NCBI RefSeq assembly: GCF_026151205.1 | Contig: NC_087076.1 | Location: 15,051,675-15,115,674 of the forward strand | Reading direction: 5' to 3' | Length of the DNA stretch: 64,000 bases | DNA from: Bolinopsis microptera | Taxonomy: Eukaryota; Ctenophora; Tentaculata; Lobata; Bolinopsidae | In this document: in pieces, positions 2,674 to 45,993 of the stretch | Numbering within the stretch: the first letter of the stretch is position 1 | How the letters are laid out: every line of letters starts with the position of its first letter | The notes under the pieces: model-generated | What the model was told of the DNA's origin: nothing | What the model saw: the letters and a program-made list of their open reading frames with translations, nothing else | The model's database searches: none | Made by a program: the position numbers and the translations under genes

Positions 2674-2937
2674 GGACCTTTACTGATAGTTGAAATTCGA
2701 CATATGACGTCATCTAGCGTCATCTAGCGTGAAATATCGCCAGATGATGATAGATGACGCTAGATGACGCTAGATGACGCTAGATGACGCCAATTAGCGA
2801 CATTGTCGCTAAGTGCACGGCACCTTTCGAATGTCGCTATCTAGCGCTATCTAGCGCTATCTAGCTAGATGACGCTAGATGACGCTAAGCACGCAGCACT
2901 GACGCCAGGCGACAGATAGCGCTATTTTCATAAAAAT
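2674..2937 (+). repeat. Left terminal inverted repeat of foldback element
   Basis: Outer part of the left arm, collinear and inverted with 7027-7363. It contains runs of TAGATGACGC and a conserved unique block (GTGCACGGCACC) that occurs inverted in the right arm. Confidence 0.88.
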
Positions 2938-3330
2938 TCTAGGGACGACATCTAGCGTCATCTAGCGTCATATGTTGCCGCGACATCTGACGCTATCTGA
3001 CGCCATCTAGCGATATCTGACGTCATCTGACGACATCTGTCGCGACGACATCTGACGCAGGCGACATCAAGCGCTGGATAGCGGGATAAGTCAGTTTACG
3101 ACAGTTCACGCTATCTAGCGCTATATAGCGCCAGATAGCGCTATATAGCGTCAGATGTCGTTGCGACATATAGCGCTAGATAGCGTTAGATAGCGCTAAA
3201 TAGCGTTAGATAGCGCTAAATAGCGAAGAATTTTGGGTCGTGACAGTCCAGGCTATTTAGCGCTAGATGTCGCTATCTAGCGCTATATGTCGCTGCGTCA
3301 GATGTCGTCGCTACATATAGCACAAGATAT
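2938..3330. repeat. TAGCG/GACATC short-motif array (inner left arm)
   Basis: Dense repetition of 5-10-base words (TAGCGC, TAGATAGCG, GACATCTGACG). The words also fill 6655-7026, but the two inner arrays are not simply collinear. No reading frame of interest. Confidence 0.85.
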
Positions 3331-6654: not shown

Positions 6655-7026
6655 ATAGCTATAGCTGTCGTCGCGATATCTAGCGCTAGATAGCGCTATC
6701 TAGCGCTATCTAGCGTTAACTGTCACAAACCGATATTCTCCGCTAGATAGCGCTATCTAGCGCTAACAAGCGTTATCTAGCGGAGAATGTCGGTTTGTGA
6801 CAGTTTACGCTAGATAGCGCTATCTAGCGCTAGCTGTCGCCGCGATATCTAGCGCTAGATAGCGCTATCTAGCGCTATCTAGCGTAAACTGTCACAAACC
6901 GACATTCTCCGCTAGATAGCGCCAGATAGCGCTAGATAGCGCTAGATAGCGCTGCATCAGATGTCGTTGCGACATATAGCGTTAGATAGCGCTAGATACC
7001 GCTAGATGTCGCAAAAAAAAGGGCGG
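6655..7026. repeat. TAGCGC array with nested palindromes (inner right arm)
   Basis: Repeated TAGCGC/GCTATC words. At 6718-6805 AACTGTCACAAACCG is followed by its own inverted copy, CGGTTTGTGACAGTT, and the surrounding array continues the dyad outward. A further copy of the ACTGTCACAAACCG block lies near 6888. Confidence 0.85.
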
Positions 7027-7363
7027 AAATTTTATGAAAATAGCGCTATCTGTCGCCTGGCGTCAGTGCTGCGTGCTTAGCGTCATCTAGCGTCATCTAG
7101 CGTCATATAGCGTCATATAGCGTCATGTAGTGTCATATAGCGCTAGATAGCGCTAGATAGCGCTAGATAGCGCTAGATAGCGACATTCGAAAGGTGCCGT
7201 GCACTTAGCGACAATGTCGCTAATTGGCGTCATCTAGCGTCATCTAGCGTCATCTAGCGTCATCTAGCGTCATCTATCATCATCTGGCGATATTTCACGC
7301 TAGATGACGCTAGATGACGCTAGATGACGTCATATGTCGAATTTCAACTATCAGTAAAGGTCC
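7027..7363 (-). repeat. Right terminal inverted repeat of foldback element
   Basis: Inverted partner of 2674-2937, longer through expansion of TAGCGTCAT and TAGATAGCGC units. Confidence 0.88.
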
Positions 7364-13507: not shown

Positions 13508-15872
13508 CTAACAAAGTCCATCAGTCTCTGTCTCCCAGACCACTGTAAGGTTGTCAGTGTAGAGAACAACGTTTCCGTCATCCTGTATTTGCAACATGGT
13601 ACCTTCGGTGTTAGGAGTTCTGGAGCTCCAGAGTGCTCCACCTTCTGTGCTGTATATGACGAGGTTGCTATCACGTTGGAATGCAAGACCTTTTACTGAG
13701 CCGTTAGTTCCAGAGGACCAAAGCGAGTTTCCATTGCAGTCAAGTACCAAGTCTCCTTCTTGCTGCATGCTAAATGTGTAATTTCCGTTGGGAGACGTCA
13801 GTGAAGAGCCAATTTCTAGTGCGATGAAGGATGTGTCTCCTACGTAGCAAACGCTTTCGATACAGCATCGTTCTGCAATATTACAAGCTTGAGATTCAAA
13901 ATTCTCCCCCTCACAGTCAGCTCCATTATCAGCTGGGGCGGGGTTTGTACAGGATCTAGTTCTTGTCTGTGTTCCATTTCCACAAGATACTGAGCAGTCA
14001 GACCAGTCTCCAAAGTCACTCCATCCACCATCAATTGGGTCACATCTGCCGACAGTCTCTGTCTCCCAAACCACTGTAAGGTTGTCAGTGTAGAGAACAA
14101 CGTTTCCGTCATCCTGTACTTGCAACATGGTACCTTCGGTGTTAGGAGTTCTGGAGCTCCAGAGTGCTTCAGCTTCTGTGCTGTATATGACAAGGTTGCT
14201 ATCATGTTGGAATGCAAGACCTTTTACTGAGCCGTTAGTTCCAGAGGACCAAAGCGAGTTTCCATTGCAGTCAAGTACCAAGTCTCCTTCTTGCTGCATC
14301 CTAAATGTATAATTTCCATTGGGAGACGTCAGTGAAGAGCCAAGTTCCAGTGCGATGAAGGATGTGTCACCTACGTAGCAAACGCTTTCGATACAGCATC
14401 GTTCTGCAATATTACAAGCTTGAGATTCAAAATTCTCCCCCTCACAGTCAGCTCCATTATCAGCTGGGGCGGGGTTTGTACAGGATCTAGTTCTTGTCTG
14501 TGTTCCATTTCCACAAGATACTGAGCAGTCAGACCAGTCTCCAAAGTCACTCCATCCACCATCAATTGGGTCACATCTGCCGACAGTCTCTGTCTCCCAA
14601 ACCACTGTAAGGTTGTCAGTGTAGAGAACAACGTTTCCGTCATCCTGTACTTGCAACATGGTACCTTCGGTGTTAGCAGTTCTGGAGCTCCAGAGTGCTT
14701 CACCTTCTGTGCTGTATATGACGAGGTTGCTATCATGTTGGAATGCAAGACCGTTTACTGAGCCGCTAGTTCCAGAGGACCAAAGCGAGTTTCCATTGCA
14801 GTCAAGTACCAAGTCTCCTTCTCGCTGCATCCTAATGTATAATTTCCATTGGGAGACGTCAGTGAAGAGCCAAGTTCCAGTGCGATGAAGGATGTGTCTC
14901 CTACGTAGCAAACGCTTTCGATACAGCATCGTTCTGCAATATTACAAGCTTGAGATTCAAATTCTCCCCCTCACAGTCAGCTCCATTATCAGCTGGGGCG
15001 GGGTTTGTACAGGATCTAGTTCTTGTCTGTGTTCCATTTCCACAAGATACTGAGCAGTCAGACCAGTCTCCAAAGTCACTCCATCCACCATCAATTGGGT
15101 CACATCTGCCGACAGTCTCTGTCTCCCAAACCACTGTAAGGTTGTCAGTGTAGAGAACAACGTTTCCGTCATCCTGTACTTGCAACATGGTACCTTCGGT
15201 GTTAGGAGTTCTGGAGCTCCAGAGTGCTTCAGCTTCTGTGCTGTATATGACGAGGTTGCTATCATGTTGGAATGCAAGACCTTTTACTGAGCCGTTAGTT
15301 CCAGAGGACCAAAGCGAGTTTCCATTGCAGTCAAGTACCAAGTCTCCTTCTTGCCGCATCCTAAATGTATAATTTCCATTGGGAGACGTCAGTGAAGAGC
15401 CAAGTTCCAGTGCGATGAAGGATGTGTCACCTACGTAGCAAACGCTTTCGATACAGCATCGTTCTGCAATATTACAAGCTTGAGATTCAATTTCCTCCCC
15501 CTCGCAGTCAGCTTTGTTAAAAGAGGGGATGGGGTTAGTACAGGATCTACTTCTTGTCTGGTTTCCATTTCCACAAGATGCTGAGCAGTCAGACCAGTCT
15601 CCATAGTCGCTCCATCCTCCATCTTCACACGAAAATCCACACTTTACCAGCGCTTTCTGGAGTTTTAGGCATGCTGTCATGGCGACCCGGTCTCGTCTTA
15701 ATGAGCCACCATCATACCCATAAGAAAACTTGCAGCCATCAACCGTGGTAGGGTACCCTTTAGTCAGACATTCCGCTTCGAATGTCGCCTGCTTCTCTTC
15801 GCCGCAAGTGTTCTCCGATGTTGCAAGAGCAAACAGTAAGGCTAAAAGAGTAGATGGGAAAAACTTTATCAT
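13508..15872 (-). CDS. Secreted TSP1/bulb-lectin repeat protein, two frameshifts
   Basis: Starts at 15872 (MIKFFPSTLLALLFALATS is a clear signal peptide), then a cysteine-containing N-terminal segment of ~65 residues. Four modules follow, each a thrombospondin type-1 domain (WSDFGDWSDCSVSCGNGTQT, ending CNIAERCC) plus a bulb-type mannose-binding lectin domain (QEGDLVL, QHDSNLVIY, QDDGNVVLY). The module period is 531 bp and modules are nearly identical. Two single-base deletions, near 14959 (CAAAT for CAAAAT) and near 14831 (CCTAATG for CCTAAATG), shift the frame in module 2. Each spacing is exactly 530 instead of 531, so either this is a pseudogene or the assembly lost an A in two short A-runs. 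No introns. Probable role: extracellular or mucus mannose-binding lectin, inferred from domains. Stop at 13508-13510. Confidence 0.85.
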
Positions 15873-31479: not shown

Positions 31480-32160
31480 AAGGGAACTTAAAAAAATTTG
31501 GCGGCCAAATTCCAAAATTTGCCAGGCATTTTTCAGAATTTGGCCGCCAAATTTTTTTAAAGGCCTAACTCAAAATTTCAATACAAGAGATAAGGTCGAA
31601 ATGCGATTCTACGTTGGTTCTGAAAATTTCATGTAAACATATTGAAACCCTATTGAGTTCTATTGTTTTGAGCGAAATCAGTTTTGCAAATATCGCGTAC
31701 TGAGATATGGACGATTTTGTTCATTTTTTGTAATTATTTGAACACAGAATCCACAGTTAGGTAGATACTGAGCTGATAATCACAGAGAATGTGTAGTATA
31801 AGCTCACCTTTCATATAAAGTTGGTTTCATTCAAAAATATTGATATTTGACCAATTTATGGGCCAAAATCGATCAAATTTGGTGCGTATGCCCAAATATG
31901 GTCGTATGGTTTTTGGCTCATAACTCAGTCATTTTTTGCCCAATCGTGATGAAAATGCATATACTTGTTCAGGGGACCACTAGCTACAAGTAGAGCACAT
32001 TAAATCTGGGTTTTGGGCATGTTCAGGGTATTTGGCTAAATTGAGCCTAATTTAGACCAAATATGGGCGTTGCTGCCCCGCGGGCACCGTTTGGCGGTTG
32101 GGGTCGGGGACCCCCTCAAAAGTTCGGTCACCGGTTCTAGTTTGTTGGTCAACTGCTATC
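31480..32160 (+). repeat. Dispersed repeat headed by a hairpin
   Basis: Starts with inverted arms at 31489-31512 and 31536-31559 (core AATTTGGCGGCCAAATTC). Next comes TTAAAGGCCTAACTCAAAATTT, which recurs near 59533 after a different hairpin. Bases ~31800-31960 match parts of copies A and B (near 11480 and 19095; shared GTATGGTTTTTGGCTCA-type words). The block ends in a GGGGTCGGGGACCCCC patch also present in the second copy near 59830. Confidence 0.7.
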
Positions 32161-38559: not shown

Positions 38560-40218
38560 AGCACGTTTGAAAAGAAATGTTTTCAGATACACTTTAAAAG
38601 AGTCCAAACTCCAATATTGGTTCCATAATATTGGTAATGTTAATGAATTGTAATTGATTGATATGCAATATTTAGGCCCGTGGCCAGTTTACAAAATAAA
38701 GGTTTATTCCATAATTTAGGGCCAACTTTCTGAAAAGATCTTTCTCCATATATTGTGTATGCACTCTAGGTTAAGTCAATAGATAAGATGATTATAGTTT
38801 GCAAATTTTAACATTGTACTTAAATAATCTGGTCTCATACCATTACGACATTTATAAACAAGAAGTAATGTTGATTTTCTGTGAATGTCTTGTTGAGATG
38901 CCCAGAGAGGCATTATTTATAATGTAATGTAATAAAATGTACTGAACTCTGATAGGCAGCCAATGAAGTTCTTTCAGAGTATCTCCTTAATCACTTCGAG
39001 ATGGCCAGGCCTACTCTCATGCTGTCTATAGGTGATGATTAACTCTGAAAAACTAGGGACAACTGGGGAATGATCCCAGAACCTCGATATTTCGCGTCTC
39101 TTGCTCTACCAATTGAGCTACTGACCCTGATTCTCACAGCGAAATCACCACTCATATACAGCACAATTTCATGCTTTGTGTGGAATATCATTTATCAGTT
39201 ATTTAGAATATATATTCGCATGTATCCACACTATATTTACAGTACACGTACAACGTGATATCATTATCAGTGCAGTGTGTACAACACCAACTACACCGAT
39301 CAATTGCCAATCTGCGAAACATTTAATTATTATTATCACTTCGAGATGGCCAGGCCTACTCTCATGCTGTCTATAGGTGATGATTAACTCTGAAAAACTA
39401 GGGACAACTGGGGAATGATCCCAGAACCTCGAGATTTCGCGTCTCTTAATCATCACCTATAGTGTGGATACATGCGAATATATATTCTAAATAACTGATA
39501 AATGATATTCCACACAAAGCATGAAATTGTGCTGTATATGAGTGGTGATTTCGCTCTGAGAATCAGGGTCAGTAGCTCAATTGGTAGAGCAAGAGACGCG
39601 AAATATCGAGGTTCTGGGATCATTCCCCAGTTGTCCCTAGTTTTTCAGAGTTAATCATCACCTATAGACAGCATGAGAGTAGGCCTGGCCATCTCGAAGT
39701 GATAATAATAATTAAATGTTTCGCAGATTGGCAATTGATCGGTGTAGTTGGTGTTGTACACACTGCACTGATAATGATATCACGTTGTACGTGTAATGTA
39801 AATATAGTGTGGATACATGCGAATATATATTCTAAATAACTGATAAATGATATTCCACACAAAGCATGAAATTGTGCTGTATATGAGTGGTGATTTCGCT
39901 CTGAGAATCAGGGTCAGTAGCTCAATTGGTAGAGCAAGAGACGCGAAATATCGAGGTTCTGGGATCATTCCCCAGTTGTCCCTAGTTTTTCAGAGTTAAT
40001 CATCACCTATAGACAGCATGAGAGTAGGCCTGGCCATCTCGAAGTGATAATAATAATTAAATGTTTCGCAGATTGGCAATTGATCGGTGTAGTTGGTGTT
40101 GTACACACTGCACTGATAATGATATCACGTTGTACGTGTACTGTAAATATAGTGTGGATACATGCAAATATATATTCTAAATAACTGATATCTCCTTAAT
40201 GGTCATGTTTATATTGTC
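38560..40218 (-). pseudogene. Old LINE relic, C-terminal part, split by insertions
   Basis: On the minus strand, below 38990, translations give LKELHWLPIRVQYILLH and further on YGERSFQKVGPKLWNK, the conserved C-terminal landmarks of CR1/L2-type LINE proteins. Stops and frameshifts make it dead. The relic continues across the tRNA-like multimer (38991-40188) to 40218, and then resumes at 46688 after the younger LINE. Removing both insertions restores a continuous ...QNAAAKAIVGQYKHDH...LKELHW sequence. Confidence 0.82.
38991..40188. mobile_element. Inverted multimer of a ~345-bp tRNA-like SINE
   Basis: Flanked by an 11-bp duplication TATCTCCTTAA (38980-38990 and 40189-40199). Inside, a ~345-bp unit is repeated head-to-tail at 38991 and 39337 (the second truncated near 39446), followed by two copies in opposite orientation up to 40188. 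Each full unit holds a tRNA-like box (GGTCAGTAGCTCAATTGG, AGAGC, and a CTGGG/CCCAG T-arm). The anticodon arm is degenerate. The dyad centre is near 39447. The single outer duplication means the whole multimer arrived as one insertion. Confidence 0.85.
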
Positions 40219-40315: not shown

Positions 40316-42910
40316 GCGCTAAATGAGGAGGGATACCTGTACAATAAGTGTGATTGCATCATTCACAAGAGATGTAAAACACAGGAAAACATTGCCACTT
40401 TTAGAGAAAAAACTTACTGCTCAAATTGTATTCAAAATCATGATATAATTCGTTATAATCCATTCTATCAAGCACCTCACTTTTCAAACAACGAACTACT
40501 TGACAATGAACCTCACGACTATATAGACTCAATAGGTACAATCTCAAAAACTCTTGAGAACTGTCAATCATATTCTACTAAAAACTTCAACAACCTCATA
40601 AAGCAGATTCCTCAAACAACATCAAAGAGCATTTTCTCACACTACTTTCGAAATATTGATGGAAATGGTACTAACTTTGACAAATTGGCTTTAGAATTAG
40701 CCTGCATAGACCACAAATTTTCTGTGATAGGTCTAGCAGAAACAAACATTGATCCCTGTAATAGTCAGCTGTACCAACTTAAAGACTATACTTCATGTTA
40801 CCAAAAACGCTTCGTTTCTAATAAGACACAACAGGTAAAAAGGAAAGGAAGTGGAGTTTCTCTCTACATTCACAACTCCTTTAACTTTAGTGTGATTGAA
40901 AAGTTATCTGTTTGTACAGAGCACTTTGAGTCCCTATTCGTAACAATAAGTAATGCTCCAGAACCAGTAACAGTTGGAGTTGTATACCGCTCACCAAGCA
41001 ATCCACTTGCTAACTTCAATGCACAGTATAAAGAAGTTCTTACTGCACTGAAAGGACATAAAGCATACATATTAGGGGACTTCAATGTTAACATAACCAA
41101 TTTATCAGGCCCAGATGAAGATATATTTGAAGAAGTTATTTATAGTCATGGGTTCACGCCCACAATATCCATTCCCACACACCAAATGCCCCACTGCTCA
41201 AAAACGTGCATTGATAACATACACACTAATGACATTCACTCATCAACTATATCTGGAGTAATTCAGGATAGTGCTTCACATCACCAGCCCATTTTCTGCC
41301 TTCAAGTAATGAATTCTGATGCTAGTTCGGAACAGAATAAACCACCTGAAAAAACAACCATTTATTATAACTATAGTAATGCAAACCTTGATAAGCTCTG
41401 TGAAGAAATTGAAAACGACATAGATACATTCTACCACAGATGTGACTCTTTTGAATCCTTCATGGATCTGTTTCAAGAAAAGATAGATATATCTTGCAAA
41501 TTGGCTTCACCAAAAACCACCAAACGAAATAACATAACAAATCCATGGATCACAAACGGCCTTATCAACTCTGTGGAGAAAAAAGCCAGACTTTATTTTG
41601 AATGGAAAAAAACAAAAACATTGTTAATTCCAGATGGGGATCTGGAAAGACATAATGTTTACAAGGACTACTCAAAATATCTTAAAATTGCCATAAAAAC
41701 TGCCAAAACCAGGTATTATGCTGAAAAGTTTGAGAAAAATAGCCATAACTCCAAAAAAACCTGGCAAATAATCAACGAGCTTCGTGGCAAAAAGAAGAAT
41801 CAGCTAAAAGATGACTTCATTATAGATGGAACTAGAGTAATTTGTAGGCGGACAATTGCAAACAAATTCAATAGTTACTTTACATCTTTAGCTAGTAATT
41901 TAAATGAGAAAGTTTTGTCCGACAACCAACTGTCTATCCAACCAATGCAATCATTTGTTGAGTTTATGTCGAAATCAGTCAACAGTTCAATACATCTAGA
42001 AGAAACTCATCCTGAGGAGATTCTTGAAATAATTCAAGAATTCGTTAACAGAAAAGCCAGTGATATACCAATAGCAGTTATCAAGAAACCGGCTTATCTC
42101 TTATCCAACATATTAGCAAATTTGTATAATACATGTATTCAAAAAGGCACGTTCCCATCCATATTCAAAATAGGCAAAGTAACTCCTATCCATAAAAAAG
42201 ATAATAAAGAAAATATTGAAAATTATAGACCTGTGTCAATATTGCCAATCTTTGGTAAGATATTTGAAAAAATAATATACAAACGGCTTTACACCTTTTT
42301 CACTGCTAATGATATTCTCAGTAATGAACAATTTGGTTTTCGAAAAGGCCACTCAACCTCACATGCACTTCACAAATCAGTTGATTCAATCACAACATCA
42401 ACATCCAGTGGTAATCATGTTCTAGGAATCTTTATTGACCTAAGCAAAGCTTTTGACACTCTTGACCATGGCATTCTCCTGAGGAAACTGGAAAATTATG
42501 GGGTTAGAGGTCTAGCTCTAGGACTTCTAAAAAGCTATTTATCCGATAGATCACAGTATGTTTCATTTCTCAACACTACATCAGAGACTATGAATGTAAA
42601 ATATGGAGTTCCCCAAGGTTCCATACTAGGCCCTCTACTTTTCTTATTATACATGAACGACATAATAAACTGTTACAAAGGCGATGAATGCAAATTTGTG
42701 CTCTATGCTGATGACACAAATATATTTATCACTGGACCGTCCAAAGAATCAACATACTTGAAGGCCAATAAAGTTCTTGATTTCGTATGCAAATTCATGA
42801 GAAGTAATCTCTTACATATAAATATGTCTAAATGCTGCTACATACATTTTCTACCTGCATACGAATCTGATGAAACCTGCGCCAGGGTTAGGCCGTATGC
42901 CAATGAATAT
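40316..42910 (+). CDS. LINE ORF: PHD-like remnant, APE endonuclease, reverse transcriptase
   Basis: The frame is open from about 40316, within the SINE-like leader, with no certain start codon. A Cys/His block (KCDCIIHKRC, then YCSNC) resembles the second half of a PHD finger, seen at the start of some LINE proteins. The endonuclease follows with GLAETNID, GVVYRSP, ILGDFNVN and a terminal SASHHQP. Reverse transcriptase has NYRPVSILP, EQFGFRKGHST, IDLSKAFDTLDH, YGVPQGSILGPLLF and LYADDTN. At 42910 the frame is cut by the inserted element inside codons for an ANEY-DKSQG junction. It continues at 45133. Confidence 0.88.
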
Positions 42911-45132
42911 GGTCATTGTCAATTTTGCTTTGCCCATTTTGCTTACTTTTTGATTTAAATTTTTGAGCAGGTTGATAAAGAGCAATTTAATCCTTTCTGA
43001 TATCATTTTCATCTGAAGATTCCGAATTTTCTGAATTCTTTGGAATGAAGTTTCTATCTCATGTGGAGCAAAAGTTATGACCTGGTTTTCGATGTGGAGC
43101 AAAAAAGTGTGGAGCACCCCAATAAAATCTATGCTTTTTGACTATTTTGATCGCCATTTAACAAATAGATCCTGGACGTTAATTGCAAAATATTTTCACT
43201 GCCAAATCATAAAATGGACCTCAGCCAGTGTGGAGCAGTCGAAATATACTCATATTTTTCGTCTCAACCAGGGGTAAACATTACAGTAGAATCTCCGTCT
43301 TTTCACAAAATCTTAGTTTAAAGGAATACGCACCAGATAACATTATCAATAATGGTACACCTTGCTCAACCGATGCGGAGCACGAAACTATTATACCTAA
43401 GTTGGGAATACTGATTGGGAAGAAACTGAGTTTTGAAAGTGAGTGTGATTAAAAACGATAAATACATCTAATCAGGCCATAAAAATATCATTTTTTCTTG
43501 TGATTATGTTCAGACCCCCTGACTCTATTCTTTGGAACTGCTGATAAACCTAGTAATGCTCAACCATGTGGAGCAGAGGACTTTTACTGCATAACATGAC
43601 TCCTCATCGGCTGATATGACTTGGATGAGAAATTAGAATGAGTATTTTAGCTTTTACAATAAATTACTAGCAGAACAGATTGAAAAATTGTATTTAATAG
43701 GCTCAACCAGAGAGGAGCAGAATGGAATGATAGATTGATAACACAACTATTTGTAAGGATCAGTGTTGTTATATTAGGATAAAGGAGGAATGATATCATC
43801 AATACTTAAGAAGCTGTTGATGTATGTAGTACTGTGTCCTTTAAAGAGAAATGTGCCACCATAGAAAAAGACAATATGCTCAACCGTGAGGAGCAACAGG
43901 CTTTTCTACGGTAAAAAGAGTCTCCATGATGGTCGATCTGTAGCCAATTTGTACGTAATGCAATTTAAAGTTTACTGAAATACTTTTCTTACCATGATTG
44001 GGCCATGATTGATGTTCCAGAACTGTTCAGCCAGAGTGGAGCAGAGCTAGAAATGACATGTCATGTACGGGATTCCTCAACTGCCTAACATTTAATGAAG
44101 ATCTCTCTTGCATGCGGCTGTAGAATGAAGTAGTGAGCTTCAAAAATCTAATACAACAGAAATCATCTCTGCTCCACACAGGTTGAGCACTGAATAGTTC
44201 CCGTGAAGTAAGTTTATTGACCACCAATATTATAACATATTTTCTCTAGAATGAATAAAAATAATATCCCATGAAGCACTTAAAAGTTGTCTCGATTGAT
44301 CAAAAGGAAGACCTCTTTTTGCTCCACATGGTTGAGATAGGCTGTTCTCGACTAAAGAGTCGGCATCAACGGTGAAAATATAGATACAGGAGTCAAGATG
44401 TAAATCACAGAAGTCACTTTATCTCAACCCAGAAAGAATTTAAAAGTTGGCAAATTTTTAACCATTTTGGGCTCCACAGGGTTGAGAGAAGTGTACTGAA
44501 TATAAATATCCGTTTCAGTACTCAAAATAGAGTTAGTAAGAGTTACCAAGCTAAAAAAATCTTACAGATCTAAACAAAAGCATTATGAAAAGCTAATAAA
44601 TTAAAAATTTACAAATTTCTACATTGCCAAAACCTCGCTCCACGTCGGTTGAGACATGGTGTGTTATCGCAAATAGTCAAAAACTCTTGAGAGGGGTTTC
44701 AACTAAAAAGTTCATAGAGTTTCAACCAAAAACTTGACTGTTTAGCGTATGATTTTTGGTCTTGAAAATTGCCTAACTTTCAAGCTACTGCTCCACACAG
44801 GCTGAGCATTAAAAGTTGTCTCAACCGGGGCTTTCTGTGTAGATGGGACCTTTTTCTGAGAGTCTCAACCTGTTTTGACTGCCAGATTCAGTTACCAACG
44901 AGATTGCAAAAAGTTTTAAAATGTCACTTTGAAGCACTGATATGCTCCACATTGGCTGAGTAACACATATAGATTACATGTTAAAGTGTCCAGTGAACAT
45001 TTGTTTGCATCTGGGTGAAATATTAACAAAGGGTGAACACCAGGTGGCATGCTAGCTCACTAAATAGCTCAACCGGTCAAATTGTACCAATTTTGGCAGT
45101 CAAATTTGGGCAAAGCAAACTTTACAATGACC
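42911..45132. mobile_element. 2.2-kb TIR element with spaced palindromic motif array
   Basis: Ends are inverted repeats matching at 24 of 26 positions (both begin GGTCATTGT and include TTTGCTTTGCCCA). It is flanked by ATAT (42907-42910, 45133-45136), and removal restores the LINE reading frame. No ORF with a product is visible. Instead an 18-20-bp motif, GCTCAACCATGTGGAGCA in its best form, recurs about every 145-195 bp: 43220, 43364, 43558, 43701, 43878 and 44025 in one orientation, then 44170, 44320, 44471, 44637, 44789 and 44943 in the other. Degenerate copies occur near 43061-43116. Superfamily unknown. Confidence 0.85.
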
Positions 45133-45993
45133 ATATGACAAATCACAAGGAATATTTATAAATGGACACAAAATTGTCAAGGTTAGCAACACCAAATTTC
45201 TTGGTGTAGTAATTGATGAAAAACTTAGCTGGGGCCCACATATAGAATATCTAAGAAAAAAATTAGATCCACTACAGGAGCACTTAACAGGATTAAACAT
45301 TCAGTTCCAGGGGAACACTACCAAAAAATATACTCTGCATTATTGGAATCACATCTTGCTTACGGAATAAGTGTTTGGGGCTCAGCCCTCAAAGACCAAC
45401 CAAACGATAAGCTGTTCATAACTCAGAAACGTTGTATAAGAATCCTTTTTGGAGACCTAAATGCATACCTTGACAAACATGCCACTTGTGCACGAGCCAG
45501 ACCTTATACAAAACAGAGGTTAGGAGCTGCTTTTTTCGAAAAGGAGCACACCAAGCCCATTTTTAATCGACTAAAATTGCTTACTGTTCAAAACTTGTAC
45601 AAATACCACTGTATATCTGAGATATTTCGAATTATGAAATTTCGCACTCCATACTCGTTGTATTGTACTATAGACTCATCAAAACGTGATACAAGTAATG
45701 TCATAATCCTCCCAAGAAAAACCAACACGTTTCTTTATATAGCCTCCAAATTGTGGAATAGCATACATAAACGGATTCTAAATGAGAATGGGGAAATCCT
45801 CACTACTTCTGTATCTTTGGTTAAATTACGCTGTAAAACTATCATCCTGGGATCCCAATCCATCAACAATAATAACACCTGGACTTACCACAACTTTCAC
45901 ATCGCCCCTCACTCAGTCGCAGACCAAACCAGTTCATCACTCACTCACCAAATTGCCGACCCAATATCTATTGAAGTGGCGAAAATTTTCTAA
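45133..45993 (+). CDS. LINE ORF, C-terminal part with one frameshift
   Basis: Continues directly from 42910 (TKFLGVVIDEKLSWGPHI, a standard LINE landmark after the catalytic domain). A frameshift at the A-run 45254-45261 moves the continuation (LNRIKHSVPG, LAYGISVWGS, NTFLYIASKLWNSI) to the next frame, which runs to the stop at 45993. The shift is in a homopolymer, so sequencing error and true decay are both possible. Confidence 0.82.

Follow-up and report, generated by a model that had tools for sequence, protein, structure and literature searches.

This study concerns a complete 2,222-bp, A+T-rich (63%) element at positions 42911-45132 of a 64,000-nucleotide stretch of the Bolinopsis microptera genome (the window; C5:15051675-15115674 of the 264.65-Mb genome that was also used for the family searches), the interior of which carries twelve near-palindromic motifs at almost even steps, six facing one way and six the other. 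The family to which it belongs is best read as a gene-less, recently amplified, non-autonomous cut-and-paste DNA transposon built from two arms studded with sites, and it is the regularity and direction of the motifs that are the surprising part.

The original prediction, made from the letters of the window, described the ends as true inverted repeats and the insertion as a clean interruption of a LINE, and both descriptions are borne out. Terminal inverted repeats (TIRs) of 26 bp bound the element, with an exact ATAT target-site duplication (TSD) outside them (Table 1). The host of the window copy is the reverse-transcriptase ORF of a LINE; when the flanks are joined minus one TSD copy, the first stop is met at aa 942 in place of aa 880, and the frame of a LINE-like protein is carried without a break over the junction of this reconstructed empty site. 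Eight ORFs scanned from the element gave no Pfam match at E<=1. A match to the Rfam model SCARNA7 at window 43403-43522 scored 27.9 bits against a gathering score of 65, covers 120 bases against a model of 330 positions, and is probably due to chance.

Table 1. Features of the element in the window copy (positions counted from the first letter of the window).
Feature	Position	Strand	Remark
TSD ATAT, left copy	42907..42910	.	
Left TIR GGTCATTGTCAATTTTGCTTTGCCCA	42911..42936	+	
Solo B-type half-site GTGGAGCA	43063..43070	+	
Solo B-type half-site GTGGAGCA	43094..43101	+	
Solo B-type half-site GTGGAGCA	43109..43116	+	
Motif m1	43220..43237	+	motif alignment
Solo A-type half-site TCTCAACC	43262..43269	+	
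Motif m2	43364..43382	+	motif alignment
Motif m3	43558..43575	+	motif alignment; best form in the original prediction
Motif m4	43701..43719	+	motif alignment
Part of s4 replaced in L017	43722..43837	.	window counterpart, edges approximate
Motif m5	43878..43895	+	motif alignment
Motif m6	44025..44043	+	motif alignment; last in left arm
Part of central spacer s6 replaced in L017	44059..44131	.	window counterpart, edges approximate
Motif m7	44170..44188	-	motif alignment; first in right arm, orientation reversed
Motif m8	44320..44337	-	motif alignment
Solo A-type half-site TCTCAACC	44422..44429	+	
Motif m9	44470..44487	-	motif alignment
Motif m10	44636..44654	-	motif alignment
Motif m11	44789..44807	-	motif alignment
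Solo A-type half-site TCTCAACC	44819..44826	+	
Solo A-type half-site TCTCAACC	44863..44870	+	
Motif m12	44943..44961	-	motif alignment
Solo A-type half-site GCTCAACC	45067..45074	+	
Right TIR GGTCATTGTAAAGTTTGCTTTGCCCA	45107..45132	-	equals left TIR at 24/26
TSD ATAT, right copy	45133..45136	.	

The twelve imperfect palindromes of the window copy have the form TGCTCARCC-spacer-GTGGAGCA, with 11 columns invariant across their alignment, and at three mismatches or fewer the best form matches four times in the window, compared with a mean of 0.03 and a maximum of 1 in 100 shuffles. Their steps of 144-194 bp (mean 156.6, CV 0.10), with eight of the eleven gaps falling at 144-154 bp, agree closely with the 144-193 bp and mean of about 157 bp that had been predicted. 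None of 200,000 random placements equalled this evenness; when a minimum spacing is forced, its chance becomes 1.6e-4 (110 bp), 0.0017 (120 bp) or 0.028 (130 bp), and the gaps show no helical phasing (P 0.20-0.28). The predicted flip near the centre is also present, as a single switch of orientation from m6 to m7 that separates six plus-strand motifs from six minus-strand ones (P = 4.9e-4 under random orientation). Since the two half-sites of a motif differ constantly, with A opposite G and CTCA versus CTCC in the same reading sense, each motif has a direction: in either arm of about 1.1 kb the A-type half is the outer and the B-type half the inner one, and each arm is thus directed at the end to which it belongs. 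Corresponding motifs lie at similar distances from the centre in both arms; in the majority copy, for instance, these are 72.5/72.5 and 229/222 bp.

Eight solo half-sites lie outside the motifs, five of CTCARCC and three of GTGGAGC, which is above chance (0.3 expected overall; shuffle means 0.23 and 0.07, respectively). Near-palindromes with short loops could in principle act as RNA hairpins, but this is scarcely credible here, since the twelve motifs have folding z-scores between +0.73 and -1.76, the A.G mismatch recurs throughout and is not repaired by pairing, and the single Rfam match is below its gathering score and off the motif period.

The sequence between the motifs had been described as not obviously repeated, and across 110 comparisons the spacers are indeed essentially unrelated. 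One pair, s3/s6 in direct orientation, stands out (0/3000 shuffles reach it), and s8/s9 (9/3000) and s9/s10 (11/3000) give weaker signals that are not secure given 110 tests. These weak direct likenesses are what might be expected if the array were a relic of a tandem duplication of about 150 bp, joined as an inverted pair, in which the spacers decayed and the motifs survived, through selection or by chance. We consider such an origin improbable: the s3/s6 alignment is out of register with the motifs, the columns adjoining the motifs stand at background identity in all twelve units, and, because the copies of the family are young (see below), the decay of the spacers must predate the family. 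It is, moreover, an account of origin, and the need for a function remains.

An element with long inverted-repeat arms that have since diverged, i.e., a foldback, would place corresponding motifs at similar distances from the centre in both arms, as is seen. With motifs and ends masked, however, the two halves are marginally alike in either sense (direct, 8/200 shuffles; inverted, 7/200), and mirror-position spacers give z-scores between -0.95 and 1.39. The halves thus match no better in the inverted than in the direct sense, which argues that no foldback is hidden in the element, and this alternative is largely refuted and highly improbable. Neither the spacers nor the masked halves resemble one long inverted repeat in which the motif has no special conservation, and the option of a decayed foldback, raised in the original prediction, becomes unlikely because no such repeat was found.

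Genome-wide, the TIR pattern (three mismatches or fewer) gave 36 matches, comprising 17 end pairs, a single end (L025) and a chance match (L026). The end pairs belong to 12 complete copies (2,202-2,239 bp long), to three copies that later insertions have split (L009, L011 and L015) and to a 412-bp deletion derivative found at two places (L010 and L018); a 508-bp fragment of the element also occurs. Exact 4-bp TSDs flank 16 of 16 counted insertions, a number that leaves out L018, as the same insertion as L010, and L025, with one end only; 13 of the 16 have a central TA. Eleven complete copies differ pairwise by 0.3-1.6% and the twelfth, L017, by 4.1-5.0%, and 156 of the 176 variable positions in the complete copies are singletons. 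No older, degraded copies were found in the genome with the whole element, L017 or either end alone as query. Judged by this divergence, the family is a recent burst.

All 12 complete copies carry the evenly spaced, mirrored array when aligned, although copies so alike mean that a shared number and spacing of motifs says little by itself. Outside the family the array is not seen. The pair pattern CTCARCC-N2-5-GGAGC-N112-142-CTCARCC has 82 matches genome-wide (one for the reversed control), of which 81 lie within family loci and the remaining one at C11:2113200. For the single-site pattern, 132 of 169 matches are in family loci, and, among the matches listed, the 15 non-family ones counted are all isolated. 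By these pattern matches, the motif array is confined to the element family within the genome searched.

Comparison of the complete copies provides a further, if limited, indication that the motifs matter. Of 144 motif instances, 137 retain the core, and all 15 distinct indels lie outside the motifs, several of these indels belonging to the replaced blocks of L017 described below. Ten substitutions occur in motifs against 26.7-26.9 expected from composition (P = 1.7e-4), yet under random placement the deficit is reached in 153/4000 trials for all 12 copies, 346/4000 for the 11 without L017, and 418/4000 for L017, the last figure being inflated by its block replacements. The apparently strong selection on the motifs is in large part due to these replacements. 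Among ten slid controls, one (shift +45, ratio 0.41) is nearly as low as the motifs (0.37). When the split copies and L025 are added, the motifs have 14 substitutions against 34.2 expected (by composition only), and there is no clear deficit in the solo half-sites (10 against 11.4) or the TIRs (4 against 7.1). The steps between motifs shift from copy to copy through small indels. Altogether, the evidence for constraint on the motifs beyond chance is suggestive but weak.

L017 is nearly identical to the rest of the family except for two blocks, one within spacer s4 and one within s6, where, as cut, 100 bp stand in place of 114 and 56 bp in place of 71, respectively. The corresponding steps change from 176.5 to 162.5 bp and from 145 to 130 bp, and the flanking motifs persist, bar a single change in m4; away from the blocks, m11 is also changed. 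Neither block has a further match in the genome, and neither convincingly resembles other parts of the element. Their likeness to the sequences they replaced is equally unconvincing, both for s4 (global alignment, 71/2000 shuffles, the cut including some matching edge bases; local, 651/2000) and for s6 (768/2000 and 425/2000). The simplest reading is an exchange with a sister element bearing other spacers, the alternative being gap repair with foreign filler; either origin implies that spacer sequence is replaceable.

The 412-bp derivative retains element positions 1-305 and 2095-2119 plus 2139-2222. It lacks all 12 full motifs, keeping three B-type and one A-type half-site, and since its left break lies some 4 bp short of m1 and its right break some 43 bp past m12, it is precisely the ladder that is gone. 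The TSD of L010 is exact and the flanks of L018 show one mismatch. The two lie on different contigs (C1 and C6), in flanks that are alike at 298/301 and 253/326 aligned positions; on account of these shared flanks they were counted as one insertion, and the locus or a surrounding repeat would thus have been copied after the insertion took place. Copies devoid of the spaced motifs would speak against the array as a property of the element, and this derivative is the one such case, the 12 complete copies all having motifs. To judge by this one insertion, the array may not be needed for movement, unless the deletion came after insertion. If the 412-bp form moved as such, the ladder would be dispensable for movement, and a reading of the motifs as sites for a host factor would gain.

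A longer, autonomous copy with the same ends, which the original prediction had suggested looking for, did not emerge: neither it nor a transposase was found in the assembly with the TIR pattern, the whole element, L017 or a shorter terminal pattern (66 matches; 18 for the reversed-pattern control) as query. With the terminal 128 bp on the right or 150 bp on the left as sole query, at E<=10, all matches were to the element family, in searches that scored the best candidates and that faint relatives could escape. The long copies L009, L011 and L015 (6.8-9.1 kb between ends) were considered as autonomous elements and rejected, since each is the 2.2-kb element interrupted by an insertion that carries LINE-type ORFs. 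L011 and L015 were struck at almost the same element point (about 752-759) by different insertions; that in L011 (near 1061 and 5621) has inverted ends beginning CGGGTATCGGCC, a TA duplication and reverse-transcriptase ORFs inside, and that in L015 (near 6354 and 1785) is LINE-type and of opposite sense to the former.

A near-match to the terminus, GGTCATTTTGGCATTTGC, occurs with variants at about 12 places and was rejected as an unrelated repeat on the evidence of four of them, where its likeness starts 7-8 bp before GGTCA and no opposite end was found within 4.3-4.4 kb. In L029, L030, L031 and L032 this repeat has a TGTTGTA[TG]GGTCATTTTGGCATTTGC-like reading; it resembles the TIR by chance, and L032 holds a tandem array with a 117-bp step. 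In IMG/VR and prokaryote genomes the element ends had no exact match, and in IMG/VR the pair pattern was found in 57 stretches, with one match in each and no arrays.

What, then, are the motifs for? The original prediction named transposase, chromatin and replication proteins as candidate binders, and of these transposase-related sites seem the most likely. The reading we favour, at a little short of an even chance, is that they bind the transposase, or a partner protein, of a lost autonomous element. The binder, which could be the family's own transposase or another DNA-binding protein belonging to an autonomous element now lost or unseen, would act as a dimer touching both half-sites; the whole element would be wrapped into one nucleoprotein complex and its ends brought together. 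The central flip would then mark the meeting point of two end-arms, probably after loss of a coding middle, and the spacers would be stuffing, tolerated within limits of length and free in sequence, as L017 supports. Counted against this reading are the failure to find an autonomous element or transposase in the assembly, the TSD around the array-less 412-bp derivative, and the solo half-sites of the right half, which do not obey the mirror orientation.

It is also possible, if rather unlikely, that the binder of the motifs is a host protein of chromatin or transcription, with one factor per nucleosome helping to keep the element open or insulated, or to allow its expression in the germ line; the mirror symmetry would then follow from the building of the element out of two arms. 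The gaps of 144-154 bp are near nucleosome size, the 412-bp derivative lies within a duplication in spite of having no array, and host proteins that bind phased sites are known, such as that of the 17-bp CENP-B box of satellites (PMC8122249). However, step length varies by as much as 50 bp and is altered between copies by small indels, and the single comparable pair of sites outside the family, among 82, implies that no host array uses these motifs.

Beyond binding as such, we entertain, doubtfully, the idea that the heritable content between the ends is essentially a pattern of spaced addresses, in which 12 directional sites form two mirrored, nucleosome-sized ladders with swappable spacers, and that the element may be a self-folding, full-length, symmetric scaffold for chromatin or transposase. 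To our knowledge, no transposon has a design of this kind; arrays of transposase sites are known mostly as irregular clusters just inside the ends. No described element with such an array was found in the open-licence literature, as covered by titles and the beginnings of abstracts, and one may exist in print. As far as that literature shows, the mirrored, even layout is undescribed, the kind of element being otherwise ordinary. An even, mirrored, full-length ladder allows spacing and direction, versus sequence, to be tested as the signal for a transposition complex or for chromatin, and the family is well suited to such tests, with its near-identical copies, known empty sites, array-less L010/L018 and spacer-swapped L017.

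Several other features of the window may be recorded. Degenerate, near-palindromic 10-bp repeats, GCGCTATCTA / CGCTAGATAG, form two separate blocks at 2738-3294 and 6673-7329. Minus-strand ORFs at 13508-15872 contain, by eye, repeated thrombospondin-like and bulb-lectin-like segments. A short inverted pair beginning AATTTGGCGGCCAAATT at 31493-31553 resembles TTTGGCAGTCAAATTTGGGC beside the right TIR, with no link established. A 345-bp tandem repeat (39458-40190; 2.1 copies, 99% matches) contains a tRNA-D-arm-like GCTCTACCAATTGAGC, and ARAGORN found no tRNA in the window.

Several known groups of elements can be set aside. PiggyBac, with TTAA duplications and CCYT ends, is rejected (TTAA in 2 of 16 insertions, and ends of GGTC), as are PIF/Harbinger, with a 3-bp duplication (4 bp in 16/16), Helitron/Helentron, with a tandem core and neither TIR nor TSD (a TIR and a 4-bp TSD are present, and the spacers are not repeated), and Foldback, with long inverted-repeat arms, on the comparison of the masked halves. 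The hAT elements, to which Ac/Ds belongs, make 8-bp TSDs, versus 4 bp here, and Sola and Chapaev make TSDs of 4 bp. AcademX makes TSDs of 3 or 4 bp (PMC10045372). For AcademX, Sola and Chapaev the length of the TSD thus fits, and no such transposase was found linked to the element ends in the assembly.

Other systems share particular aspects of the layout. The CENP-B box is likewise a short (17-bp) site that recurs at near-nucleosomal or double steps, and the protein that binds it derives from a transposase (PMC8122249), whereas the present motifs are unrelated to it by eye, and are mirrored within a single mobile element and not arranged in a tandem satellite. The coral CMITEs are, like the element, non-coding animal elements with TIRs, in which the internal region seems to matter, but they are of about 100 bp, have TTAA duplications, are linked to piggyBac and are without a motif array (PMC2872659). 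In the Ac/Ds system, elements with internal deletions are moved in trans and keep their subterminal motifs (PMC3260210); the present motif and ends are different, and no autonomous partner was found. The closest likeness, and the precedent for the favoured reading, is to be found in En/Spm (CACTA) with its TNPA/TNP1 sites, in which a short motif is present in many copies and both orientations inside both ends, beyond the TIRs; there, TNPA, a protein encoded by the element, binds the repeated subterminal sites, which are cis-determinants of transposition, and the sites of the soybean element Tgmt* can form stem-loops (PMC2613891). The present element differs in its ends (GGTCATTGT, not CACTA), in its TSD (4 bp in 16/16, not 3), in motifs that are spread evenly over the whole interior and not crowded at the ends, and in that no transposase was found for it. 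Of the features by which CACTA elements are recognized, it thus departs in termini and TSD length and shares the repeated subterminal motif, with twelve copies, six per arm.
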